Shown: positions 15,397-39,776 of the stretch, piece by piece
Position numbering within the stretch: the stretch's first letter is position 1
Layout of the letters: each line of letters begins with the position of its first letter
IMG/VR virus record: IMGVR_UViG_3300035157_000033
Span: 1 to 46,824 of that record
DNA length: 46,824 nucleotides
Direction: 5' to 3' (one strand)
DNA from: a virus
Translations under genes and position numbers: made by a program
The notes under the pieces: model-generated
The model's input: only the letters and a program-made list of their open reading frames with translations
What the model was told of the DNA's origin: nothing
The model's database searches: none

Positions 15397-15542
15397 AAAA
15401 AATTAAACAAGCAGTATATAATGTTAAAGAGTGGGACAAAAAAGTCGCAAAAAAAATCCAAGATAAATTTTCACTCACAGACTATCAAATGCTTTGTCTT
15501 GCATTTGCAAAAGGATTCGTTATTGGAGCAATAATACTATAG
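15393..15542 (+). CDS. small protein with C-terminal membrane helix
   Basis: 49 residues from ATG 15393, preceded by a strong AAGGAG site. A basic N-terminal half (KEWDKKVAKKI) is followed by a hydrophobic stretch (LCLAFAKGFVIGAIIL) long enough to cross or enter a membrane. The stop TAG shares its last base with the GTG start of pcyA. Confidence 0.55.
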   Translation: MKKIKQAVYNVKEWDKKVAKKIQDKFSLTDYQMLCLAFAKGFVIGAIIL

Positions 15543-16207
15543 TGACTATTGTTGATGATTTGGCAAAGGTAATTCGCACCTCTTGGAATGACTTACCTAA
15601 TATAGAATGTTTAGATAATGACTTCCCTGAGTTAACTAAGGAGGATCTTTACATTTCTAATGAGATGAGGAAATGTACTGGTCTTCGCAAGATTCATTTA
15701 GAAGTTGCTAAGGCAGGAAAACTGGATGTATTACATTGTGTATACTTTCCAGATCCTAAGTACGTTCTTCCTATATTTGGATGTGATATTATTGCTACAC
15801 CGTCAATGGTTACTGCTGCAATAGTTGATATATCTCCTATTAGTGGATCAAATTACATCTATGAAAGGGTAAAACCTATTTGTGATGTATTTAATTTTAA
15901 TGAACCTCGTCCTTTACCAGAATGGGGTGATATATTTTCACCTTATATGAAATTTCAACGTATAAGACAGGTTGAGGAACAAAGAAAATTCCTTGATGTT
16001 TTAATGGAATACCTTATTATATACTGTGATGCTGTTAAGGTTGCACAACAAGGATCACCATTAACAACAGCACAAAGGATGGCAGACCAAATTAGATACT
16101 CTGTACAACAGAGAAAGAATCCTAAGACATTAGCAGTTCTTTCTAATTGGTTTGATAAAGACTGGGCAAATAATTATATAAACAACATACTATTCTGTAC
16201 TCCATGA
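15542..16207 (+). CDS. pcyA: phycocyanobilin:ferredoxin oxidoreductase
   Basis: 221 residues from GTG 15542, which overlaps the previous stop by one base. It belongs to the ferredoxin-dependent bilin reductases and is closest in pattern to PcyA: RKIHLEVAKAG, LDVLHCVYFPDP, FGCDI, AAIVDISP and LPEWGDIFSPY all line up with cyanobacterial PcyA. The residues equivalent to PcyA Glu76, His88 and Asp105 are present (Glu54, His65, Asp82), with one residue fewer between Glu and His. PcyA reduces biliverdin IXalpha to phycocyanobilin in two two-electron steps. The upstream ferredoxin probably supplies electrons. No heme oxygenase is seen, so biliverdin must come from the host or elsewhere in the genome. 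PebS- or PcyX-like specificity is not excluded by sequence alone. Confidence 0.85.
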   Translation: MTIVDDLAKVIRTSWNDLPNIECLDNDFPELTKEDLYISNEMRKCTGLRKIHLEVAKAGKLDVLHCVYFPDPKYVLPIFGCDIIATPSMVTAAIVDISPISGSNYIYERVKPICDVFNFNEPRPLPEWGDIFSPYMKFQRIRQVEEQRKFLDVLMEYLIIYCDAVKVAQQGSPLTTAQRMADQIRYSVQQRKNPKTLAVLSNWFDKDWANNYINNILFCTP

Positions 16208-26817: not shown

Positions 26818-26826
26818 CTATAAATA
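26818..26826 (+). promoter_or_regulatory. T4-type late promoter, exact consensus
   Basis: CTATAAATA lies 22 bases before ATG 26849. It would drive the first copy of the five-gene cassette. Confidence 0.75.
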
Positions 26827-26848: not shown

Positions 26849-28240
26849 ATGTCACAGTTAAATGTCGATAAAATTGTATCTCTAGCAGGTGGTGGTGGAA
26901 CTGCTCGAATTGACTTGGAATCTAGTGGCAACTTTAGTTTTGACTCTGGAACACTTTATATTGATGCAGGTAACAATCGTATAGGTATTAACGATTCATC
27001 TCCGTCTTATGGTTTAGATATTAATGCTACTGATGCAGTCAAAGTACCTGTAGGTACAACCGCCCAAAGACCAGCAACCGCAGTAGAAGGTCTATTCAGA
27101 TACAATAGTACAGATAGAACCTTTGAAGGTTACTCACTTAATGCAAGTACAAACGTAGTTGAATGGGGACCGATTGCAGGTTCAGGTGGGGGAGGTATGC
27201 CCGATCAGTCTGCTGATAGATATAGCACAGATTATTCTGTTGGTGCTACACTAAAATCAGATGGTACTAATACATATTGGGCATTTGATGCTGGTGATAA
27301 TGATTGGTCAAGTGCAAGAATCTGGACACATGGTTATGTTGCTGGAGGATATAAGAACTCTTCTTCATGGAGAACTGTAAACAGAACTGTTCACTCTACT
27401 GACGTAACAACAAATATTGGTGATATCATTGATAGATCTGGAGGATATTTCTCTGGATCATGGAATGATATTACACACTTCTGTCATTCATTTGACAACA
27501 GTTTCAGAGCATCATCTAACTATACTTCTGCCTATAATATGGCAACTGAATCTGGTAGAACACACCAAGGTTCATGGGATATGACAGTGAATAGGAACTC
27601 TATGGGTTCATTCCAAGACCATGTATTTGCTGGTGGTAATTCATATCTATATGGTGGTGGTAACTCAAGAACTGATGTTATGAACCTGAAGACTGAGGTT
27701 ATGAGAACTTCAGGATTCCCACCCGATCACTATGATGGTGGTGATGACCCAACTTGGGGTGGTCATGGTAGATTGAAAGGATGGAAGAAGAGAGGAGATA
27801 CATGGTCAAGACAAGGTTTCTGGTGGAATACAGAGACTTGGTGTTCTTGGGCACATGCTCCTGGTGGAGATGGTTGGAAGAAGATCATGTCTACTATGAT
27901 AGGTCACATGTATGTTGGTACTGGTAATAACAACCAGAACGGTATGCAGAAAAATGATGATACTACTGGTATTTCAACAAGAGGTCTTGACTTTGGTAGG
28001 ACTGGAGAGGAGAATTATCAGATGGGTATGAGAAAAGGTTATATGTTAGGTAACTATAATGGTTCACAGAACAATAACACTTACAAGGTGAACTATAATA
28101 CTGACCAATACAATAACTTGGGTGGAACTACTGAACCGAAAGGTCATGGTGGTATGTCATCTGCTCACTGTGCATCTGCAAGTTCTGTAACATCACAGGC
28201 AGCATCATATGATTATGGTACTAACATTCCGAACTACTAA
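26849..28240 (+). CDS. adhesin-like fibre protein, cassette copy A
   Basis: 463 residues. The N-terminus is an attachment region with NRIGINDSSPSYGLDI and the VPVGTTAQRPATAVEG module (near residue 73). The C-terminal ~310 residues are very rich in Gly, Asn, Ser, Trp and Met and are paralogous to the gene at 33657. Shared motifs are WTHGYVAGGYKN / CTHGFVAGGYKN, GEENYQ, NGSQNNN.YK and EPKGH.GMSSA. It is probably a host-recognition protein. It is followed 2 bases later by the next cassette gene, so co-translation is likely. It may be the target of the modification enzymes downstream (inference). Confidence 0.6.
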   Translation: MSQLNVDKIVSLAGGGGTARIDLESSGNFSFDSGTLYIDAGNNRIGINDSSPSYGLDINATDAVKVPVGTTAQRPATAVEGLFRYNSTDRTFEGYSLNASTNVVEWGPIAGSGGGGMPDQSADRYSTDYSVGATLKSDGTNTYWAFDAGDNDWSSARIWTHGYVAGGYKNSSSWRTVNRTVHSTDVTTNIGDIIDRSGGYFSGSWNDITHFCHSFDNSFRASSNYTSAYNMATESGRTHQGSWDMTVNRNSMGSFQDHVFAGGNSYLYGGGNSRTDVMNLKTEVMRTSGFPPDHYDGGDDPTWGGHGRLKGWKKRGDTWSRQGFWWNTETWCSWAHAPGGDGWKKIMSTMIGHMYVGTGNNNQNGMQKNDDTTGISTRGLDFGRTGEENYQMGMRKGYMLGNYNGSQNNNTYKVNYNTDQYNNLGGTTEPKGHGGMSSAHCASASSVTSQAASYDYGTNIPNY

Positions 28241-28242
28241 TA

Positions 28243-29037
28243 ATGTCTAGCGTTTTAACAAGTCCTAATACCAGAGAGAATCCAGGATATTCTGATGTGA
28301 TAGTCTTGGATGTAGAGAAATTTCCTCAAGTAGACACATGGGGTACTCTTCTTGGTGGCAACATGGGGATAGAATATTATGTGCTGGATGATGAGTTCTG
28401 GGACTATATTCCTAATGATATTACACATCTTCGTTATACCTATAAGGAAGCAGATCTTGGGGCAAGGTATTGGGGTGAGACAAGATTTAAGAGATCTGAA
28501 TATGGTGTTAATGATGAAGGAACTACTTTAAAAGAAAAGGTAGAGATAGAAGATAAAAGTATATTTGGTAAGTATGTCGTACCATTTATGCAGGACGTAA
28601 TAACCCTAAAGACACAAGAAATTTTTGAGAAAAGACTCAACGTATTAAAGACTAAATACTCTTACCTTGAACAGGCAGTCTTCCCTGATCAACTTGCAGA
28701 GTCTAAAGCATTTTTAGATGACGATAAGTTTGAACCTAAGTTAATTAATCGATTGGCAGAATTAAGGGGATTGACAATCAAGGAGTTTGCTACTAAAATA
28801 GTAACATCACACGCTACTTGGAAAGAAAAGTTATTTGATCTCGCTGTTGCAGAACAGAAAGTAGTTCGTGCAGTTAAAGCATGTACGACTGTTGCAGAGA
28901 TTAACATCTTCCTTGAAGATTACTATGGTGAGCAAATGACTGACCAACAAACATTAGACACAGGAAGAGGAATTCGTAATGAAGAAACAGGACTCGTCGA
29001 ACGAGAAAAACCCTTTAAGTACGGAATACGTTTCTAA
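28243..29037 (+). CDS. fibre-associated protein (possible assembly factor), cassette copy A
   Basis: 264 residues, not a recognised family. The N-terminal half is acidic and beta-like (SDVIVLDVEKFPQVDTW); the C-terminal half is helical. It shares with the gene at 34664 a C-terminal segment of the form INI(F/I)xEDY(Y/L)G(E/D) near residue 228 and the same location between adhesin and helical protein. Position right after a fibre gene suggests a chaperone or connector, by analogy with T4 gp38-type genes. The end overlaps the next start by 59 bases. Confidence 0.5.
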   Translation: MSSVLTSPNTRENPGYSDVIVLDVEKFPQVDTWGTLLGGNMGIEYYVLDDEFWDYIPNDITHLRYTYKEADLGARYWGETRFKRSEYGVNDEGTTLKEKVEIEDKSIFGKYVVPFMQDVITLKTQEIFEKRLNVLKTKYSYLEQAVFPDQLAESKAFLDDDKFEPKLINRLAELRGLTIKEFATKIVTSHATWKEKLFDLAVAEQKVVRAVKACTTVAEINIFLEDYYGEQMTDQQTLDTGRGIRNEETGLVEREKPFKYGIRF

Positions 29038-29923
29038 AGACCCCAGATATACAATCGATAATATTATGGAGGATCTCGACTCCTTTTCTGATCCATCATT
29101 GGATTGGAAAGGTGTTGATGATTTTGATAGAGGTATAATAGACTGGACTGATACTGCTTTCTTTGAACAGACTGAGTTTCAGAATAGATGGTTCGTAGTT
29201 AATTCACAAGTCACACCATACCGTCAGATTAGACAGGCATGTATGGAAGTACAGTCACGTTATCAATCATTACAACGAGTAATTATACAGTATAAAAGAT
29301 CTATTAATGATTGCAAACGTGTAGAAGCAGAAATGAATGAAGAGAAGGATGAGTATTGGAAAGAAGATAAGAAATATGAATTAGAACTATTATATCTTGA
29401 CTTACAGAGTTGGAAGAATAAAATACGTCAATGTCAATCAGAACTATCAGGTATATTAAGTATCATCAAAGAAAAGGTAGGTGATCTACCTGCAAGTGAG
29501 GTTACTAAGTATCTTTCTGATAAAAATCTTCAGGAAGAAGAAGAGCATAAGTATTGGATTGCTCGTATGGCAAAACAATCCGCAACGGATCTTCTTACTA
29601 CAGGACGTATTCAGGCAGGTAACCTAGATAGTATGTTGATGATGAATCCCGAAGATCAAGCAGCAGTGACTGATCTCGCTATGACATATTCTACAGCAAT
29701 GAATAAATCTGTTGGTAAAATTAAAGAAGCAGCAGAAGATAAAGTTGATAGAATGTTGAAAGATCAACCACCACAAATGTTTGACACCGCAGGTGTTTTA
29801 AGTGATTATGCAACCAGTAACCTCGCAGATAGAAAAGAAAGGAATCTTCAGTCTTCCGATCAACCCGAAACTTCCTCCAGAGTTGATAGAAGAATCACTG
29901 ATTCCATTTCTAAAAAAGCATAA
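28979..29923 (+). CDS. acidic helical protein, cassette copy A
   Basis: 314 residues, mostly charged alpha-helix with probable coiled coil (about residues 85-165). Conserved with the copy at 35169: FFEQTEFQNRWFVV / FPQTEFQCTNFVAG, YRQIRQACMEV / YRAVRQALLEV, and EEHKYW(I/V)ARMAKQSA.DL followed by a GN(L/I)DS(M/I)LMM segment. No known family is recognised. It could be a fibre chaperone or an adaptor for the enzymes that follow. The next gene starts more than 100 bases inside it. Confidence 0.55.
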   Translation: MKKQDSSNEKNPLSTEYVSKDPRYTIDNIMEDLDSFSDPSLDWKGVDDFDRGIIDWTDTAFFEQTEFQNRWFVVNSQVTPYRQIRQACMEVQSRYQSLQRVIIQYKRSINDCKRVEAEMNEEKDEYWKEDKKYELELLYLDLQSWKNKIRQCQSELSGILSIIKEKVGDLPASEVTKYLSDKNLQEEEEHKYWIARMAKQSATDLLTTGRIQAGNLDSMLMMNPEDQAAVTDLAMTYSTAMNKSVGKIKEAAEDKVDRMLKDQPPQMFDTAGVLSDYATSNLADRKERNLQSSDQPETSSRVDRRITDSISKKA

Positions 29924-31571
29924 GCATTTAATATACGACTTGTATTTTACTTGTCGTATGCCACCATTTATGAATGATGCAATGGGTGACACCTTTCGTA
30001 CAGAAAGTGATGCGAAGGATGCTGCTAAGAATTCATTTTATATAATGCAAGAGACTGGCATACCATTGTCAGCAACATTTAATAGTCTATGGGTAAGACC
30101 TGACCAGAAGAATTTAGATATTTGGATTGAGAATTTTAAACCATTATATAATATTGGTGTAAAGACTGTTACGTTACCTCATACTTCATGGGTATCTACA
30201 GGACAAATACAAAAAGAGTTCCCAGAACTGTACATTAAGAATACTATACTTAGAGAGGTTGCAAGACCTAATGAGATAGTATCTCTTGCTACGTCTGGGT
30301 TTCATTATGTCAATTTAGATCGTGATCTAATGCGTGACAAAGAACTATTGTTGCGTATTAAAAAAGCAAAGGAATATTGTGCAGATAAAGGTAAACCAAT
30401 TAAGATCTCATTATTAGTTAATGAGGGATGTTGGGGTGGTTGTCCTATTATGCCAGAGCATTATCATATTAATGCAACAAGAGAAGGAAGAGATCCTCAG
30501 TTCTTTTATAGTGAAATTAGTAGAGTATCATGTAGTCGTTGGGATGTATATGATCCTGCTAGTGCACTTAAGGGATCTAACTTACCACCTTGGAAAGCAG
30601 ATTGGGAAGAGTTCTTTGACTTAGGTATTGATGTATTCAAATTTCATGGTAGAGATAATGCCATAAGAATGAAAGAATCAATGGATATTATTGCTAAGTG
30701 GGATGCAGATGAGGAATTATTATATAATGATTTTGATCCATTCTTTAAGGATTTACATCTTAAGGATGCACCTATAAATATATGGCGAGACAAAATCAAG
30801 ACATGCAAGTTCGATTGTTGGGATTGCAATTACTGTGAGTCTGTGGTAGAATCATCCATGAAGAAGGAGAAGAGAGTTTTGAATCCACTTATAGACAGAG
30901 TTATCAAGGCAATAGATGGTGCTGTTGATAATAATTCTAATTTCAAACCTGAAGGGTATGATGTCTTAGGGTTATCATCATCTAAAGTTAGACACTTCCT
31001 TAATAATATGTGTAGTGTACCTGGTACAGTATATGTTGATGCTGGATGTTATATGGGTAGCACATTGTTTGCAGCATTAATGGGTAATAAAGATGTCAGA
31101 GCATATGCTATTGATGATTACTCAGCAGGTGTAGTTAAACCAAGACGTAAAGATTTACATTCACAGTTTGAGGTAGAGAATCCTATACAAACATTTGTTG
31201 ATAATACAGAGAAATGGATGAGTGAGGATAATTCAGTTGGATTATCAGTTAGACCTATACATGAAGTAGAGTATAATCCTCAGTTCCCACCTAATGTAGT
31301 ATTCTATGATGCTGATAATCAAGACTCAAGGATGGTCACTAACTTAGAGAAGATTCATAGTCAAGCAGCAGATAGTTATGTTTTAATTGTTGATGATGCT
31401 AACTTTGAAGGTGTGATTGAAACTACTGAGAAGTTTTTAAAAGATAAGACTGTAGTATTTGAAAGGAAGTTACTAACAAAAGAATTAGAAGATGCTAATG
31501 ATTGGTGGAATGGTATGTATATAGTTGTTATAGATAAGACTCAAGAGGGAGCAGGTGCAAGACTATTATAA
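29808..31571 (+). CDS. U32-like Cys-rich barrel fused to SAM-dependent methyltransferase, cassette copy A
   Basis: 587 residues from ATG 29808 (GTG 29802 also possible). Residues ~15-345 look like a peptidase-U32-type TIM barrel (LSATFNSLWVRPDQKN, TVTLPHTSW, YVNLDRDLMRD). The Cys sets are Cys208/Cys212 in NEGCWGGCPIMPEHYH, Cys242, and Cys333/337/340/343 in CKFDCWDCNYC. U32 proteins carry a [4Fe-4S] cluster and include O2-independent hydroxylases (UbiU/UbiV, TrhP, RlhA). Residues ~400-585 look like a class I methyltransferase: VDAGCYMGST as the glycine-rich loop, then VVFYDADNQ and VLIVDDANF, as in TylF-like O-methyltransferases. The domain split is clear; the U32 relation and substrate are inference. 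It overlaps genes on both sides. Confidence 0.6.
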   Translation: MQPVTSQIEKKGIFSLPINPKLPPELIEESLIPFLKKHKHLIYDLYFTCRMPPFMNDAMGDTFRTESDAKDAAKNSFYIMQETGIPLSATFNSLWVRPDQKNLDIWIENFKPLYNIGVKTVTLPHTSWVSTGQIQKEFPELYIKNTILREVARPNEIVSLATSGFHYVNLDRDLMRDKELLLRIKKAKEYCADKGKPIKISLLVNEGCWGGCPIMPEHYHINATREGRDPQFFYSEISRVSCSRWDVYDPASALKGSNLPPWKADWEEFFDLGIDVFKFHGRDNAIRMKESMDIIAKWDADEELLYNDFDPFFKDLHLKDAPINIWRDKIKTCKFDCWDCNYCESVVESSMKKEKRVLNPLIDRVIKAIDGAVDNNSNFKPEGYDVLGLSSSKVRHFLNNMCSVPGTVYVDAGCYMGSTLFAALMGNKDVRAYAIDDYSAGVVKPRRKDLHSQFEVENPIQTFVDNTEKWMSEDNSVGLSVRPIHEVEYNPQFPPNVVFYDADNQDSRMVTNLEKIHSQAADSYVLIVDDANFEGVIETTEKFLKDKTVVFERKLLTKELEDANDWWNGMYIVVIDKTQEGAGARLL

Positions 31572-32073
31572 AATTACTGATAACTTTTTAGATACTGGTA
31601 CATTTAATACATTATCTAATGAGTTACTCATGCCATCATTCCCTTGGTATCCATCAAGTATTGATGCAGAAGAGCATGAAGGTAATAAGTTGCGTAATAT
31701 GCAATTCGTTCATTACTTTTATGAAAATAATATGGCAATGGATGGGTGTAATATATTATTTCCTTTAGTCAAGAAGATAGATCCTCTTGCTGTGTTGAGA
31801 ATTAAAGGAAATATTACTCTACAACATGATACTCAATTAAAACATAATCTACATGTTGATATAACAAATACTACAAATCCAACAGTTATGGTGTCCATAT
31901 TTTATATGAATACTAATAATGGGTGGACAGAATTTGAGGATGGTGTTAAAATACACAGTGTTGCAAATAGATTGGTTACATTTCCAAACTATATAAAGCA
32001 TACGTCTGTATCATGCAGCGATCAGACATATAGAATGGTATTAAATTTAAACTATGTTATCAGCGATCCTTAA
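31555..32073 (+). CDS. 2OG-Fe(II) oxygenase, cassette copy A
   Basis: 172 residues from GTG 31555, with GAGGGAG just upstream; it overlaps the previous gene by 17 bases. It shows a full facial triad in prolyl-hydroxylase order: His100-x-Asp102 (LHVD), His149 (YIKHT) and Arg160 for 2-oxoglutarate (YRMVLNLNY). The fold is the small double-stranded beta helix, with VMVSIFYMNTNNGWTEFEDG between the ligands. It is likely a hydroxylase. The substrate is unknown; context points to the fibre proteins, the product of the upstream enzyme, or a cell-surface sugar. Confidence 0.78.
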   Translation: MQDYYKITDNFLDTGTFNTLSNELLMPSFPWYPSSIDAEEHEGNKLRNMQFVHYFYENNMAMDGCNILFPLVKKIDPLAVLRIKGNITLQHDTQLKHNLHVDITNTTNPTVMVSIFYMNTNNGWTEFEDGVKIHSVANRLVTFPNYIKHTSVSCSDQTYRMVLNLNYVISDP

Positions 32074-33079
32074 GAATGAACTATACATGGGTTACATTTT
32101 TGGTATTATGATATTGGGTGGATTTATTCGTCAATATCATGTATTGGATGATGTATATTCATTAGCAAAGAGATATGTAAAGGATAATCGTGTGATGATA
32201 ATCATTACATCTATATTTGGTGGAGTCCTACCTATACCTGGTAGAGTAGCACTATCAGCACCATTATTAGATGCTATAGCACCAGAAAATAAGAGAAAGA
32301 GAAGTGAGTTTGGTATAATTGATTATCTTTCTACTCATCATTACTATTGGTGGAGTCCACTTGAAAAGACTGTGGCACTACCTATGGCAGTCATGGGTAT
32401 AAGTTATACTACATTTTTAGGATATACTATTGTACCATTGTGTATATGTTTAGCATATACATGGTGGTATATTTTTACTAAGGTAGATCCTCAAAGTGTT
32501 GTTCCTGACATGAGTAATATTAGTGATTTTAATTGGAAGAGAGCATTAAGAGGATGGGCACCATTTATTGCTACACTATGGTTCTTATTATGTGTAGGTA
32601 AAGCAGGTGCTATATTCTTCTTCCCTTGGTTTGCTGCTATGGCATGTTATTATAGTATTATATGTAAAGATTGGAAGTGGGGTAAATATTTGGATGGTAA
32701 GTTTGCTATCATTGCAACAGTAGTATTGGCATTAGGTGGTGTAGTTAAACAGATACATGCACCAGTGATGGAGTATCTTAAGAGTGCAGATACTACTATG
32801 ATTATACCTGTTAGTATTGTAGCAGCAGTAGCAGCATATATTATGGGTAGTAGTGGTAAGTATGCTGGTATGACTTCAGCGTTAGTTGCTATATTTGGAC
32901 CACAATATCTTGTATGGTTCTTAACTACAGAGTATTCTGGTTATCTATTATCACCAGCACATAAGTGTTTAATGATTGGTCAACAGTATTTCGGTACACC
33001 TATCAAGAAATATTATAAAGTATTAGGAGGATTGTGTGCATGTTTAATAACGTATGGGTTCTTCACATTGATTATATAA
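32054..33079 (+). CDS. multi-pass membrane permease, DUF401-like
   Basis: 341 residues with about nine or ten hydrophobic membrane segments. The N-terminal part includes GVLPIPGRVALSAPLLDAI and STHHYYWWSPLEKTVALP, resembling the DUF401 / GntP-related ion-transporter superfamily that usually transports organic anions. It overlaps the oxygenase gene by 20 bases and so belongs to the cassette transcript. A viral permease in a fibre region is unusual. It might import a substrate for the modification enzymes (inference), or act independently in host metabolism. No second copy is present after cassette B. Confidence 0.55.
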   Translation: MLSAILKNELYMGYIFGIMILGGFIRQYHVLDDVYSLAKRYVKDNRVMIIITSIFGGVLPIPGRVALSAPLLDAIAPENKRKRSEFGIIDYLSTHHYYWWSPLEKTVALPMAVMGISYTTFLGYTIVPLCICLAYTWWYIFTKVDPQSVVPDMSNISDFNWKRALRGWAPFIATLWFLLCVGKAGAIFFFPWFAAMACYYSIICKDWKWGKYLDGKFAIIATVVLALGGVVKQIHAPVMEYLKSADTTMIIPVSIVAAVAAYIMGSSGKYAGMTSALVAIFGPQYLVWFLTTEYSGYLLSPAHKCLMIGQQYFGTPIKKYYKVLGGLCACLITYGFFTLII

Positions 33080-33082
33080 ATA
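33075..33082 (+). promoter_or_regulatory. T4-type late promoter, exact consensus
   Basis: TATAAATA overlaps the permease stop and lies 24 bases before ATG 33107. Confidence 0.75.
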
Positions 33083-33106
33083 ACTGAGAGAAATAGTATA
33101 GAATAA

Positions 33107-33643
33107 ATGTCAGCACTTACAGTAGGTACTGCAACAGTAAGCACCAGTCTCATTGCAGGAACTAATACCTATCCAAATGTACAAGGTAATGCCAATGATG
33201 TGCTTACCACAAATGGTGCTGGAGTTTTAGCGTGGGCAGCACCAGCAGGAGGTGGTGGAGGTAAAGAGACAATAGTAAACTCAAGTAGTGCTTTATCAGG
33301 AACTATTAATTTAGATTTTCAGACTTCACAAATATATCATTATACTGGTAATGCTGGTGGTAACTGGACAGTGAACTTTAGAGGTAGTTCTTCAGTTACA
33401 TTGAATAGTGAAATGAGTACAGATCAGTCTCTTACATTTGTACTATATGTTCAGCAAGGTAGTACAGCATATTATAATAATGGATGGCAAATAGATGGTA
33501 GTGGTAAGACACCAAAATGGTTAGGTGGATTTGGTACTCCTAACTCAGGACATACTAACTCTGTTGATGTATACACATATACTATAATGAAGATCGGTAA
33601 TAATGACTTCCGAATTTATGCTAACCAGAACTTCTACACATAA
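33107..33643 (+). CDS. fibre attachment / structural protein
   Basis: 178 residues. N-terminal ALTVGTATVSTSLIAG and NANDVLTTNGAGVLAW are followed by a Gly run and a beta-rich domain with TFVLYVQQG, GWQIDGSGKTPKWLGG and VDVYTYTIMKIG. This last arrangement is common in cyanophage fibre proteins. It may be the attachment subunit for the adhesin encoded next, which lacks its own long N-terminal region. Confidence 0.6.
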   Translation: MSALTVGTATVSTSLIAGTNTYPNVQGNANDVLTTNGAGVLAWAAPAGGGGGKETIVNSSSALSGTINLDFQTSQIYHYTGNAGGNWTVNFRGSSSVTLNSEMSTDQSLTFVLYVQQGSTAYYNNGWQIDGSGKTPKWLGGFGTPNSGHTNSVDVYTYTIMKIGNNDFRIYANQNFYT

Positions 33644-33656
33644 GGAGGGAACTTGA

Positions 33657-34664
33657 ATGTCAGGACTAACGGCAAGTGCTACTGCACAAGGACCATTTGT
33701 AACCTCTGGTAGATCACAGCATAGTAGATCACAAGGTAGTGAACATGGACCTACTGCTACACCTTGGGAGAGATCAAGGATATGTACGCATGGGTTCGTT
33801 GCTGGAGGATATAAAAATGGTTCTCCTTGGAGAAATGTAAATAGGACACAACATAGTAATGATACATCAACTAATCTTGGTGACAAGATGAATGATGCTG
33901 GATCATATATTGATGGTGCATTTAGTGATCTTCACATGTATTGCTATGGTACTGATAATTCATTCTCTGGATGGTCTAACAGAGTTTGGTCAATGCAAAT
34001 GAGCAATGAATCAAACAGAGGTAATCAATCTGGAATGAATGTTAGTAGGAATGACATGGGATGTATGATTGATTATCATTACATGGGTGCTCATATCTAT
34101 ATTAGTGGAGGTGGTAATAGCACCACTGATAGAACTAATATGAAGAATGATTCTAATGCTACTACTAATGGATTTGGTAGTGGTGGTGACTATACAGCAG
34201 GGACACAAGGAAGATTAAGAGGATACATGAAGACAGGTGGTACTGCTCAATATATGACATGGGCAAATGAGTCATGGTCAACATGGAGTAATTCACCAGG
34301 AACTGACGGATGGGGTAAAGCATGTGGTAGTTGGATGGGTCATTTCTATATGAAGACGGGTGGTAACTGTGTTACGGGTTTAGCAAAATGTAATGATGAT
34401 ACTGGTGCTAATATATCTACATTCAACGTACAGAACTCAGGTGAAGAGAATTATCAGCAAGGTAACTTTAAAGGATATTGTTTAGGACATTATAACGGTT
34501 CACAGAATAATAATTCATACAAGTTCTCTACTACAAGTGATACATATAGTTCAGGTGGTGGAGGTATGGAACCTAAAGGACACAATGGAATGTCCAGTGC
34601 TGGCAATGCTTCTGCTTTCTCATTTAATAACTCTTCTTACGGAATTACACCCCCCTCATACTAA
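33657..34664 (+). CDS. adhesin-like fibre protein, cassette copy B
   Basis: 335 residues, with a strong AAGGAGGGA site 9 bases upstream. It is paralogous to the C-terminal part of the protein at 26849 but lacks that protein's N-terminal attachment module, which seems to have been replaced by the separate gene at 33107. Very Gly/Asn/Ser/Trp/Met-rich. It probably contacts the host surface. The stop overlaps the next ATG (TAATG). Confidence 0.6.
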   Translation: MSGLTASATAQGPFVTSGRSQHSRSQGSEHGPTATPWERSRICTHGFVAGGYKNGSPWRNVNRTQHSNDTSTNLGDKMNDAGSYIDGAFSDLHMYCYGTDNSFSGWSNRVWSMQMSNESNRGNQSGMNVSRNDMGCMIDYHYMGAHIYISGGGNSTTDRTNMKNDSNATTNGFGSGGDYTAGTQGRLRGYMKTGGTAQYMTWANESWSTWSNSPGTDGWGKACGSWMGHFYMKTGGNCVTGLAKCNDDTGANISTFNVQNSGEENYQQGNFKGYCLGHYNGSQNNNSYKFSTTSDTYSSGGGGMEPKGHNGMSSAGNASAFSFNNSSYGITPPSY

Positions 34665-35227
34665 TGGCATTATACGATCCCAATTTAATATTCTTCATAC
34701 ATGATGTTGAAGATCTACCTGTTGAGGTAAGAGGACATAGATTAATGTATGTTAGTAATAAGATTAAATATGCTATCTGTGGGGTAACACAGTCAACTAT
34801 AGATGAGTATATGAATGGATGGACTTTAGATAAGATATCTGAGGATGAAGCAATATCAGGTTCATCATTATGGGGTGAAGTAAGAACACATACAAGTGAG
34901 TGGACTGATGATGGTAATGGTAACTCACAAAAGATTAAAAGGGAAATTAGTGATGAAGATAGAGCAACATGTGTATCATTAATGAAGAAAGTTGCTAAGA
35001 AATTAGTTGAGTATGGTATCAGTAAACTTGGTGATTCACATGCTACATATAACAGTGCCTTATTGACATCTATTGATAATTGCAGTACAATGGAAGATAT
35101 CAATATAATATATGAGGACTATCTTGGTGACGAGTTACCAAGAACTCAAGCATTAGCATTATCTAAATATGACTCAGATGGAAAACGAACATACAATGCA
35201 GGACGGGTCACCCCAAGTTTCCTTTGA
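34664..35227 (+). CDS. fibre-associated protein (possible assembly factor), cassette copy B
   Basis: 187 residues, shorter than its copy-A counterpart at 28243. The N-terminal domains differ (here LIFFIHDVEDLPVEVRGHRL), while the C-terminal region matches in pattern, including INIIYEDYLGDE near residue 156. No family is recognised. It overlaps the next gene by 59 bases, the same overlap length as in copy A. Confidence 0.5.
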   Translation: MALYDPNLIFFIHDVEDLPVEVRGHRLMYVSNKIKYAICGVTQSTIDEYMNGWTLDKISEDEAISGSSLWGEVRTHTSEWTDDGNGNSQKIKREISDEDRATCVSLMKKVAKKLVEYGISKLGDSHATYNSALLTSIDNCSTMEDINIIYEDYLGDELPRTQALALSKYDSDGKRTYNAGRVTPSFL

Positions 35228-35927
35228 TGAATTTGATACTTTCATTAGAAAGAACGCCAATGTAACTCCATTTCCTCAAACAGAATTTCAATGTACTAAC
35301 TTTGTAGCAGGATCACATGCTACTAAGTATAGAGCAGTAAGACAAGCATTATTAGAAGTAGCAACAAGAAATCATGGCATCAATAAGATGCACATTGAGA
35401 TACAACGTGCAGATATTGAGATAGATAAGAAAGTACATGAGTTAGAGAAGTTAGGATTTAAAGAGGGAGATATACCAGGTAAAACTGATTTTGATGCAAG
35501 ATTATTATATGTTGAGTTAAACGATAAGCAAATTGATAGAAAGGAATATGTTAAACGATTGACTCAATCTGAAATGGAATTGAGATACTTTTTAGATTGG
35601 ATTAAAGAACAATGTGATGATGAACAGGAAGTTGCATCATATATGGTATTAGATAAGGAAGAAGAACATAAGTATTGGGTTGCAAGAATGGCAAAGCAAT
35701 CTGCTGTTGATCTTATTGGTTATGGTACTATTAATGTTGGTAATATAGATTCTATCTTGATGATGCCTGAAGAAGATCAATCTAAAACTATTGATATAGC
35801 ATTAAAGTATGCTGGTAGTATTAAATCAGGTATGGAAAGAATGAGACTAAAAGCAGAACAAGAGATTAGTTTATTGGAAGAGGGTATGCCATCACGCAAG
35901 ATGATTAGTGATGCAGTTGAAGAATAA
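35169..35927 (+). CDS. acidic helical protein, cassette copy B
   Basis: 252 residues from ATG 35169 (ATG 35178 or 35196 also possible). A helical protein aligned with the gene at 28979 through TEFQ, YRAVRQALLEVATRN, EEEHKYWVARMAKQSAVDLIG and NVGNIDSILMMPEEDQ. The N-terminal region before TEFQ is shorter than in copy A. No enzymatic motif is seen. Confidence 0.55.
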   Translation: MTQMENEHTMQDGSPQVSFDEFDTFIRKNANVTPFPQTEFQCTNFVAGSHATKYRAVRQALLEVATRNHGINKMHIEIQRADIEIDKKVHELEKLGFKEGDIPGKTDFDARLLYVELNDKQIDRKEYVKRLTQSEMELRYFLDWIKEQCDDEQEVASYMVLDKEEEHKYWVARMAKQSAVDLIGYGTINVGNIDSILMMPEEDQSKTIDIALKYAGSIKSGMERMRLKAEQEISLLEEGMPSRKMISDAVEE

Positions 35928-37599
35928 AATATTTTCAGTTCCTATTAATCCTAAATTAGATCCAGATTTTATTAAGAATGAGTATCTACAGTTCTTAATA
36001 AGAAATAAGGATCTAATATATGATTTATATTTTACTACAAGGATGCCACCCTTTACACAGGATGCAATGGGTGACGTATTTTATACTCAAGACATGGAGT
36101 TCCAAGTCATTGAGATGGCATTATGGTTATCTAATGAATCAGGTATACCATTATCAGCAACATTTAATAATCTATATGTTAGACCAGATCAAAAGAATTT
36201 AGAAACATGGATTCATAACTTTGAATCATTATATAATGCTGGCATTAAGATTGTTACTCTACCTCATACATCATGGGTATTAACTGGAGAGATACAGAAA
36301 CAATATCCTGAATTATACATTAAGAATACTATACTAAGAGAAGTTACTAGACCTAATGAGATAGTTGAACTTGCAAGAGCAGGTTTCCATTATATAAACC
36401 TAGATAGAGACTTGATGAGAGATAGGGATAGATTAAATGAAATCAAAGAGGCGAAAGAATACTGTGCTGAACAGGGATATCCCATTAAACTATCATTATT
36501 AACTAATGAGGGTTGTTGGGGTAATTGTCCTATCATGCCAGAACATTATCACTATAATAATACTAGAGATGCTGATGATCCTCAATACTTTAACAGTAGG
36601 ATTAGCAGAGTTAGTTGTAGTAAATGGGATGCACTTGATGGGGCAGCATCACTTAAGGCAGCAAATCTACCACCTTGGAAAGAAGATTGGATTGAGTTCT
36701 TAGATGTAATTGATGTATTTAAAATGCATGGAAGAGAAGCACCATTACGTCTTAAAGAGACTATGGATATTATTGATAGATGGGCAAATAATGAAGAGTA
36801 TTTGTTCTCTGATTTCAGAGAATATATTGATGTTGTTGATATTAAAGAGAGACCTATTGATGTATGGAGAGATAAGATAAAGACATGTAAGTTTAACTGT
36901 TGGAAGTGTAATTACTGTGATACAGTATACAAACATGGTAAAGGTGATATAGAAGTTAATCCTAAAATACCTCATATATTAGAGTCAATAGACAAGGCAG
37001 AGAGATTAGATAGTAACTATACAGGAGTTGCAATAGAATCACTTACATCAAATATAACTAAACACTTCTTAAATAATATCTGTTCATTATCTGATACAGT
37101 ATACTTAGAACTTGGATGTTATGCTGGTGGTACATTCTATTCAGCATTACAGAATAATAATGTTAAGGGATATGCAGTTGATAACTATAAACAACCAACA
37201 TATCCTAACAGGGATGATTTAAACTTTAAAGGGTATCAGAACCCTAAAGCAGTATTATTGGAACCACCTTGGTATCCTGATAAGAGATATGATTATAAAT
37301 TAATTGAGGAGGATATACAGAACATAGCATTACCAGAGGAAGTTAATGTTATATTCTATGATGCAGATCACGATCCTCAAGCACAATATATTAATCTTAA
37401 ACATGTTTACCAGTTCTGTAAAGATGAGTTTATTCTTATCATTGATGATGCTAATATGCCTAATGTTATTGAGTCTGTAGATGAGTTCATTCGTATTATG
37501 AAACTTAATGTAATCTTTGAACGTAAACTATTAACTAACAAACCAGAAGATGATTCTTCATGGTGGAATGGTCTTTATATATTATTACTGAAGAAATGA
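35911..37599 (+). CDS. U32-like Cys-rich barrel fused to SAM-dependent methyltransferase, cassette copy B
   Basis: 562 residues from ATG 35911, overlapping the helical protein by 17 bases. It aligns along its whole length with the protein at 29808. The Cys sets are all conserved: Cys202/Cys206 (EGCWGNCPIMPEHYH), Cys236, and Cys326/330/333/336 (CKFNCWKCNYC). The methyltransferase half has LELGCYAGGTF (about residue 398), FYDADHDPQ and LIIDDANMP, with an intact DADH acid pair. Conservation of the cysteines and of the SAM loop in two otherwise diverged copies indicates that both halves are functional. The substrate is unknown. Confidence 0.62.
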   Translation: MQLKNKIFSVPINPKLDPDFIKNEYLQFLIRNKDLIYDLYFTTRMPPFTQDAMGDVFYTQDMEFQVIEMALWLSNESGIPLSATFNNLYVRPDQKNLETWIHNFESLYNAGIKIVTLPHTSWVLTGEIQKQYPELYIKNTILREVTRPNEIVELARAGFHYINLDRDLMRDRDRLNEIKEAKEYCAEQGYPIKLSLLTNEGCWGNCPIMPEHYHYNNTRDADDPQYFNSRISRVSCSKWDALDGAASLKAANLPPWKEDWIEFLDVIDVFKMHGREAPLRLKETMDIIDRWANNEEYLFSDFREYIDVVDIKERPIDVWRDKIKTCKFNCWKCNYCDTVYKHGKGDIEVNPKIPHILESIDKAERLDSNYTGVAIESLTSNITKHFLNNICSLSDTVYLELGCYAGGTFYSALQNNNVKGYAVDNYKQPTYPNRDDLNFKGYQNPKAVLLEPPWYPDKRYDYKLIEEDIQNIALPEEVNVIFYDADHDPQAQYINLKHVYQFCKDEFILIIDDANMPNVIESVDEFIRIMKLNVIFERKLLTNKPEDDSSWWNGLYILLLKK

Positions 37600-38117
37600 A
37601 GATATACGATAACTTCTTACCTGATGAGATATTCCAGAAACTATTCTCATACATGAAAGGGTATGATTTTAAATGGAATATGACTAAGGTTGTTGATGAC
37701 ACCACAGACAATCGTATTAATAATAGACAATTAGCACATGTATTCTATGAAAGACATTTCTTATCAATGGATACCCTAGAACTATTGTTTCCATTCTTTC
37801 AGAAGATACAACCAGTAGCACTAATTAAAATTAAAGCAAATCTTAACATGCCTACGGAGAATATAATAGAGCATGGATTTCATAATGACATACAGGATGG
37901 TGTACACTTAGATTATATTAAGACAGCAGTATTCTATTTGAATACTAATAATGGATATACTAAATTTGAGGATGGTACAATAGTTGAGTCAGTACAGAAT
38001 AGATTTGTAGTATTTGATAATAGAATGAAGCATACAGGCACAACATGTACCGATCAACCGTTTAGGATGGTTATCAACTTCAACTATGTGCACGATCCAA
38101 AGTGTCACATAGGATAG
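37596..38117 (+). CDS. 2OG-Fe(II) oxygenase, cassette copy B
   Basis: 173 residues from ATG 37596, overlapping the previous stop (ATGA). Iron ligands are His96-x-Asp98 (FHND) and His146 (RMKHTG); Arg157 (PFRMVINFNY) is the 2-oxoglutarate site. It aligns with the oxygenase at 31555, including FYLNTNNGYTKFEDG. A host-type promoter for the next genes begins over its end. Confidence 0.78.
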   Translation: MKIYDNFLPDEIFQKLFSYMKGYDFKWNMTKVVDDTTDNRINNRQLAHVFYERHFLSMDTLELLFPFFQKIQPVALIKIKANLNMPTENIIEHGFHNDIQDGVHLDYIKTAVFYLNTNNGYTKFEDGTIVESVQNRFVVFDNRMKHTGTTCTDQPFRMVINFNYVHDPKCHIG

Positions 38118-38950: not shown

Positions 38951-39138
38951 ACATAGAACTTCCAGCATGTATATTACTTGATGATCCTGAAAAACAGGTC
39001 TTGAAAGATGCCATGCTATGTTATATTAAAGAGTTAGAAATTAAAGCAAAAAAAGATAAAGTTTTATCTGTAGAGGCATACCAACAGGTCATGTCACAAT
39101 TATCAGAAATCATTAAAAAAACAGGTTTATCACAATGA
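38947..39138 (+). CDS. small helical protein
   Basis: 63 residues, with MNIELPACILLDDPEKQVL at the start and then a Lys-rich helix. Overlaps both neighbours by 4 bases. Not recognised. Confidence 0.55.
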   Translation: MNIELPACILLDDPEKQVLKDAMLCYIKELEIKAKKDKVLSVEAYQQVMSQLSEIIKKTGLSQ

Positions 39139-39776
39139 GTGTTGAAATGTTCGCTCCTGCATGGTATTATGTGGGAGATGTGAATGAAGAATATCAAAAA
39201 AGAATTGAAGAGTTATTTAAACCTTTCATTTCTAATGATGATAACTTTAGTGATGCAGTTGGATGGAATTGTAATGTACAAACATCATTCCAACATGCTA
39301 ATAATGGGTCAGCACCTTGGACACAATGGTTGGAGTGTTTAAGACCTCAAGTTGATGAGTTCATGGATGAGTTACAACCATTATGTGATATTGAAATCAT
39401 ACCTCAAGAGGCATGGGTTAATAAGTATCACAGAGGAGATCATCAAGAGTATCACGATCATGCAGTTCCTCAATGTAACTTAAGCATGGTATACTTTCAT
39501 ACTCTAACTCCTGGAGAAAAGAGTAACTTTAAGTTCTATAATAATTCTCATTCATTATATAAATCATGCGGTCTTGTAGATGTATTTAATTTACCTACAG
39601 GATTTGCTATTGAACCTAAGATAAGACAAGGGAGTTTAGTTATATTCCCATCATTCTATCCTCACTACGTCACACCCAACAATAGTGACCATGAAAGAGT
39701 GACGCTATCAGGGAACTTCTGGGTTGTGCCAGATGACAAAGCGTCCGCTAAAGCATGCAAACTACCAAATCCATGA
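39135..39776 (+). CDS. 2OG-Fe(II) oxygenase superfamily protein
   Basis: 213 residues with the pattern of the phage-rich 2OG-Fe(II) oxygenase family. WVNKYHRGDHQEYHDHA contains His107-x-His109, FPSFYPHYV gives His177, and Arg188 in DHERVTLSGNF is the 2-oxoglutarate contact. It is most similar in layout to the gene at 9767 and less so to the two cassette oxygenases. It sits in the small-gene early-type region, so its timing probably differs. Substrate unknown. Confidence 0.78.
   Translation: MSVEMFAPAWYYVGDVNEEYQKRIEELFKPFISNDDNFSDAVGWNCNVQTSFQHANNGSAPWTQWLECLRPQVDEFMDELQPLCDIEIIPQEAWVNKYHRGDHQEYHDHAVPQCNLSMVYFHTLTPGEKSNFKFYNNSHSLYKSCGLVDVFNLPTGFAIEPKIRQGSLVIFPSFYPHYVTPNNSDHERVTLSGNFWVVPDDKASAKACKLPNP

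Follow-up and report, generated by a model that had tools for sequence, protein, structure and literature searches.

A doubled five-gene cassette encoding a predicted propeller adhesin and candidate modification enzymes in a T4-like cyanomyovirus fragment

Two homologous units in a tail-fiber region

The window analyzed here, that is, the whole 46,824-base stretch of the IMG/VR virus record IMGVR_UViG_3300035157_000033, represents part of the genome of a T4-like cyanomyovirus, its closest matches being such phages as P-RSM1, S-BM1, metaG-MbCM1 and the S-RIM12/Syn33 group. Its tail-fiber region contains two cassettes of five genes in identical order (26849-32073 and 33657-38117), each encoding a predicted adhesin, a fiber-associated protein, a helical protein, a U32-related barrel fused to a methyltransferase, and a 2-oxoglutarate (2OG)-Fe(II) oxygenase (Table 1). 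The two copies in the same gene order described in the initial annotation were recovered as ten open reading frames (ORFs), in place and on the same strand, and homologous gene by gene. For genes 1 to 5, identity between the copies is 45, 31, 35, 52 and 40%, and the respective BLASTP E values (8e-78, 7e-7, 1e-38, 0 and 3e-43) put the homology far beyond chance. The genes themselves are widespread and already catalogued; what would be new is the doubling and the function.

The gene 1 protein is modelled as a kelch-like beta-propeller, a reading that is new here. In the predicted structure (mean pLDDT 67), the N-terminal third is poor and the body is all-beta; in Foldseek searches, this body is matched by kelch domains and by designed propellers with six blades at target TM scores of about 0.67-0.81. 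Kelch beta-propellers such as KEAP1 and the designed six-bladed SAKe proteins are alike in fold to the adhesin body but share only ~14% identity with it, with no Pfam match, a likeness of fold rather than a demonstration of common family membership. The propeller model agrees with the adhesin-like protein first proposed; the name adhesin is one that we infer, because it is based on the fold and the locus. The attachment part missing from gene 1 of copy 2 may be provided by the short fiber-like protein that heads unit 2. Genes 2 and 3 were considered as candidate tail-fiber assembly chaperones; neither the gene 2 members nor gene 3 matched the profile of a known chaperone family, and no match was found among the sequences in the PDB.

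The overlaps between successive genes are -2, 59, 122 and 17 nucleotides (nt) in copy 1, the third of these being 116 nt if gene 4 starts at its conserved ATG, and 1, 59, 20 and 40 nt in copy 2, so that the overlap initially reported throughout each copy holds for genes 2 to 5 whereas genes 1 and 2 hardly overlap. The identical 59-nt overlap of genes 2 and 3 is real in both copies, but no other length is seen as often in the family (16 of 78 units, with 113, 68, 62 or 56 nt in others), and it was accordingly dropped as special evidence. More telling, as judged from the sequences, is the overlap of genes 3 and 4, which varies in length and is constant in phase in 78 of 78 units.

Each unit is headed by the T4-type late-promoter motif TATAAATA; TATAAAT was taken as the T4 late promoter in cyanophages by Sullivan et al. 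(PMC3037559). Over the whole window, the motif is no more frequent than chance would predict (5 found, 7.2 expected), and it is its placement alone that stands out. Among relatives, the motif lies approximately 30 nt upstream of 22 of 103 gene 1 ORFs (at exactly 30 nt in 15), several of the contigs in this count being near-copies, compared with 1% of random windows. The placement of the motif before the units supports late, operon-like expression and fits virion maturation. The main text of the paper on P-HM2 transcription (PMC5082946) contains nothing on the cassette genes.

Table 1. Coordinates of the cassette genes and adjacent features in the window
Feature	Position	Strand	Remarks
Late-promoter motif, unit 1	26819..26826	+	T4-type; 30 nt before gene 1
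Copy 1 gene 1	26849..28240	+	Adhesin; T4-GC 351, phrog_1417; poorly modelled N-terminal part and kelch-like beta-propeller
Copy 1 gene 2	28243..29037	+	T4-GC 352, phrog_1604; fiber-associated, possibly an assembly protein
Copy 1 gene 3	28979..29923	+	T4-GC 353, phrog_1409; helical, constant partner of gene 4
Copy 1 gene 4	29802..31571	+	T4-GC 354, phrog_1458; U32-related TIM barrel with seven invariant Cys, fused Methyltransf_24-type domain
Copy 1 gene 4, likely start	29808	+	Conserved ATG
Copy 1 gene 5	31555..32073	+	T4-GC 100, phrog_274; 2OG-Fe(II) oxygenase, mislabelled DNA endonuclease V in records
Membrane protein	32054-33079		DUF401/TIGR00529-type, phrog_14035; between the two copies
Late-promoter motif, unit 2	33075..33082	+	T4-type
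Short fiber-like protein	33107..33643	+	Head of unit 2
Copy 2 gene 1	33657..34664	+	Propeller region only, without N-terminal attachment part
Copy 2 gene 2	34664..35227	+
Copy 2 gene 3	35169..35927	+
Copy 2 gene 4	35908..37599	+	U32-related barrel and methyltransferase; likely start ATG 35911
Copy 2 gene 5	37560..38117	+	2OG-Fe(II) oxygenase

The DUF401-type protein encoded between the copies is an odd component for a tail-fiber operon; it also neighbors the cassette in metaG-MbCM1 and in several IMG/VR contigs. Elsewhere in the window, a ferredoxin-dependent bilin reductase (15494-16207; Pfam E 6e-49) represents an auxiliary metabolic gene typical of cyanophages.

Conservation and ancestry of the units

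In Syn33 and P-SSM4, a single cassette is present as T4-GC 351, 352, 353, 354 and 100, in identical order, with the annotations 'sericin 1 precursor-like' for the first gene, 'DNA endonuclease V' for the last and three hypothetical proteins in between. Genes 3 and 4 were each found in 123 phage records, at one place per record and with identical counts per organism; that these are the same records is deduced from the counts and the loci read rather than from a match accession by accession. In 115 phage records, a match to gene 1 covers 80% or more of its length, and 449 relatives of gene 4 were detected in IMG/VR. The main arrangement among the loci read is 1-2-3-4, in this order. S-SM1 lacks genes 1 to 4, and the same slot is filled by several 2OG oxygenases. 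The co-occurrence in other marine phages that the initial annotation suggested checking is thus borne out, the genes being found together both in cyanophage records and in IMG/VR loci; as for independent occurrence, which it had named as an argument to the contrary, genes 1 to 4 stay together whereas gene 5 is replaced by other oxygenases.

Two complete gene 4 copies were found in this window and in seven other IMG/VR contigs (L004/L027, L005/L029, L006/L048, L007/L045, L008, L010 and L011), and in no isolate record. When trees were built for genes 4, 3 and 1 (the last from a quick search), the copy 1 genes fell into one clade that also includes single-copy phages, and the copy 2 genes formed a separate, fully supported clade. 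A recent tandem duplication was rejected because copy 2 is not the sister of copy 1 in the gene 4 tree. Since the copy 2 clade is separate and does not adjoin copy 1 in that tree, we conclude that the second set has long existed as a paralogous or acquired unit and has been inherited whole. The distances of the genes within the units correlate at 0.89-0.97, a correlation partly accounted for by common ancestry. In the double-copy genomes, genes 1, 3 and 4 cluster by copy and not by genome, so the partnership between a given adhesin and its enzyme has been maintained separately in each copy.

Relatives of gene 4 were also encountered on two contigs filed under Dehalococcoidia and Euryarchaeota metagenome-assembled genomes, L106 (PBPE01000072.1) and L107 (DANB01000001.1, 3 kb). 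A cellular origin was rejected, given that L106 bears the phage cassette and fiber genes and is therefore phage DNA, most likely misbinned.

The predicted enzymes encoded by genes 4 and 5

The structural model of the gene 4 protein combines a TIM-barrel-like domain with a Rossmann methyltransferase. All seven cysteines of the barrel are invariant in 48 of 48 proteins, the most distant members included, and so are the glycines and acidic residues of the S-adenosylmethionine (SAM) loop in the 47 of 47 members that have a methyltransferase domain. Methyltransf_24 (PF13578) matches 35 of the 48 members at E values up to 0.1 (best, 1.5e-8); in the window, copy 2 matches at 9e-4 and copy 1 has no match by itself. 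Sequence and fold searches of the PDB yielded generic barrel or methyltransferase matches only, with poor superposition of the two domains.

The fusion of a U32-like domain with a methyltransferase was part of the initial annotation; the fusion stands, given the model and the Methyltransf_24 matches, but the link to U32 turned out to be distant and to run through an intermediate family. The Pfam U32 profile (PF01136) has no match in the window at E values up to 10 and is absent from the 10 Pfam families listed for the 48 members; direct profile comparison of the barrel with the U32 proteins of Escherichia coli gives nil or weak results, and direct membership in this family was rejected on both grounds. 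The four-cysteine motif for [4Fe-4S] binding in U32 proteins, CX6CX15CX3/4C or similar (PMC6747719), is not found in gene 4, the seven invariant cysteines being spaced otherwise. A viral fold match led to a 'peptidase' of Escherichia phage OLB35. The respective RB69-type family (full-length proteins of five Straboviridae) aligns end to end with the gene 4 barrel at a probability of 94.9 and a score of 46.9, compared with a best score of 21.8 and a probability of at most 1.1% for column-shuffled decoys (n=50), and in turn matches E. coli U32 proteins of the UbiU/TrhP type at 69%. The relationship of gene 4 to the U32 family appears to be a distant homology that runs via the RB69-type family. 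The RB69-type genes are located in the Straboviridae loci L146-L150 (e.g. L150:2992-4161); that of OLB35 (L144:1644-2804) is split into two ORFs.

UbiU and UbiV, both [4Fe-4S] proteins, belong to a hydroxylation pathway that is independent of O2 (PMC6747719), and because of this chemistry and of the homology, distant as it is, it is reasonable to propose for gene 4 an oxidative role based on Fe-S. A sugar substrate is suggested about as well. Under this alternative, genes 4 and 5 would make or decorate a sugar late in infection, either a nucleotide sugar or a host surface glycan, with the result that the receptor is changed (e.g. for superinfection exclusion or progeny release) or a glycan is supplied to the fiber, the adhesin recognizing the matching glycan. 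The closest homolog of the barrel belongs to the RB69-like sugar module, for which UDP-arabinose has been proposed as the product (PMC6024577), and macrocin O-methyltransferases, which act on a sugar, are among the viral proteins that resemble the methyltransferase half in fold. Conversely, no sugar isomerase, nucleotidyltransferase or glycosyltransferase was seen around the cassette, and a protein partner better explains the tight linkage to the adhesin and the pairing within each copy. We regard a sugar or host-glycan target as a serious possibility that ranks close behind the adhesin.

The same RB69-type module is suspected to make UDP-arabinose for DNA (PMC6024577), so that, by homology to the RB69-type protein, the cassette enzymes could be imagined to modify phage DNA. 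The cassette is part of a late tail-fiber operon with tight linkage to an adhesin, and neither annotations nor profile matches place any member of the RB69 DNA arabinosylation set (isomerase, nucleotidyltransferase, phosphatase, glycosyltransferase and dCMP hydroxymethylase) near the two copies; with no dCMP hydroxymethylase or glycosyltransferase nearby, and with this operon context and linkage, modification of DNA is quite improbable.

In one locus, L022, gene 3 precedes a barrel that has no methyltransferase attached, so it looks like the barrel and gene 3 form the core to which the methyltransferase was added, or from which it was lost in L022. This locus, along with the position of all the genes in the tail-fiber region, would also fit a structural or scaffolding role of genes 2 to 5 in the tail fiber, with enzyme folds reused without catalysis. 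Such a role is improbable considering that 48 divergent gene 4 proteins show no variation at the catalytic and cysteine residues and that the HxD...H motif is present in 17 of 17 oxygenases.

In gene 5, the triad H108, D110 and H158 is invariant in these 17 proteins, and R169 is an arginine in 16 of them; together with the cysteines and SAM loop of gene 4, this upholds the earlier claim that the catalytic residues are intact in both copies. The assignment as a 2OG-Fe(II) oxygenase is likewise confirmed by the invariant motif and by the matches of copy 2 to PF13640 (E 4e-4) and phrog_61 (1e-4), both below the Pfam cut-off; copy 1 is assigned by homology only. T4-GC 100/phrog_274 is erroneously labelled 'DNA endonuclease V' (denV) in PHROGs and in many cyanophage records. 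This function was rejected because the oxygenase triad is present and no Pfam or NCBIfam DenV profile matches gene 5.

Among the loci read, gene 5 is largely limited to a close group of phages, and other 2OG oxygenases occupy its place in the loci that lack it. Of 67 loci, 54 encode at least one 2OG oxygenase among the six ORFs that follow gene 4, compared with 11 of 34 before gene 1, where some of the cases are gene 5 of copy 1. Many of the downstream oxygenases were confirmed with Pfam and PHROGs. The whole region is oxygenase-rich (12% of all ORFs in the loci), with an approximately twofold enrichment after gene 4 (24%). Given the 54 of 67 loci with some 2OG oxygenase, oxidative chemistry next to the adhesin is a general feature, the particular enzyme being exchangeable. 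For the many 2OG enzymes of cyanophages, consumption of 2-oxoglutarate or a response to nitrogen status has been proposed (Sullivan et al. 2010, PMC3037559), and the oxygenases of the cassette might mainly serve the same end; this leaves the U32-like/methyltransferase fusion and the constant linkage to the adhesin unexplained, and we consider it the least probable of the alternatives.

Two further observations concern enzymes in this neighborhood. Another 2OG-Fe(II) oxygenase (39135-39776; PF13759, E 5e-12) follows the cassettes in the window, and its relatives are similarly placed in other phages. Tryptophan halogenases, another possible type of decorating enzyme near the adhesin, are matched by 3 of 107 ORFs downstream of gene 4; ORFs of about 500 amino acids at L109:10577 and L125:11512 are candidates, the matching ORFs not being resolved individually.

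A possible receptor-binding module and its known relatives

We tentatively favor, as the most probable of the readings considered, a late receptor-binding module in which genes 4 and 5 oxidize and O-methylate the adhesin or its glycan. The conservation of genes 1 to 4, together and in order, across distant phages speaks for this reading, as do the correlated distances and the pairing by copy, the constant phase of the overlap of genes 3 and 4, the late-promoter motifs, the oxygenases after gene 4, the Fe-S chemistry of UbiU/UbiV and the conserved active sites. Although the gene layout is shown, both the chemistry and its target are what we infer, and the 'oxidize then methylate' pathway of the initial annotation, along with its target, is plausible. 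The set would be translated together late in infection, each unit being translationally coupled. Gene 1 would encode the distal adhesin, which the products of genes 2 and 3 may hold or deliver during assembly. The predicted Fe-S U32-type barrel of gene 4 would oxidize residues or glycan on the adhesin, its methyltransferase half would O-methylate them, and the exchangeable 2OG oxygenase would contribute O2-dependent hydroxylation; two units would then produce two separately matured adhesins. A more specific version, whereby an O2-independent Fe-S hydroxylase-O-methyltransferase and an O2-dependent oxygenase put hydroxy or methoxy groups on the phage's own propeller, with the second set maturing a second adhesin, is rather unlikely.

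Several points weigh against modification of the adhesin. We know of no modified virion protein. In S-ShM2, gene 4 lies ~6 kb downstream, with oxygenases in between, and in several contigs extra ORFs separate gene 3 from gene 4. The homology of gene 4 to U32 proteins, on which the oxidative role draws, is distant, and inheritance of the genes together is no proof that the enzymes act on the adhesin. Furthermore, the RB69-type genes adjoin those for a sugar isomerase (SIS), a nucleotidyltransferase, a phosphatase and dCMP hydroxymethylase, that is, a sugar-nucleotide module and not a protein-modification locus.

The cassette genes, found in numerous cyanomyovirus isolates and in 449 stretches of IMG/VR, currently go by the label hypothetical or, mistakenly, 'endonuclease V'. 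Should the adhesin indeed be the target of the enzymes, viruses that abound in the ocean would control their host range at an additional, new level, through the chemical maturation of their receptor-binding proteins. The cultured single-copy phages P-SSM4, Syn33 and P-HM2 make the proposal directly testable.

The initial annotation knew of no phage system of this composition, which holds for function only: the cassette is common, and its genes and their order are those of T4-GC 351-352-353-354-100 in the gene clusters of Sullivan et al. 2010 (Syn33 and P-SSM4). In those cyanomyoviruses, the cassette comes in one copy per genome with no function assigned, whereas this window contains two. A literature search on modification of cyanophage fibers returned no papers. 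UbiU/UbiV, TrhP and RlhA share with gene 4 the barrel, a cysteine cluster in the equivalent place and the K..GR motif; they have four cysteines, in contrast to the seven of gene 4, spaced CX3C, C and CX3CX2CX2C, and no direct profile match connects them. The closest relative, the RB69-like 'U32 family peptidase' (phrog_5757), shares with gene 4 the NE.C motif, located after the sixth strand, the FK..GR motif and the C-terminal group of cysteines, all read from the alignment; unlike gene 4, it lacks the methyltransferase fusion and an associated adhesin, and it adjoins enzymes acting on sugars and DNA bases. This link to an enzyme of the RB69 arabinosylation module provides a common handle on unsolved sugar or oxidation chemistry in phages.

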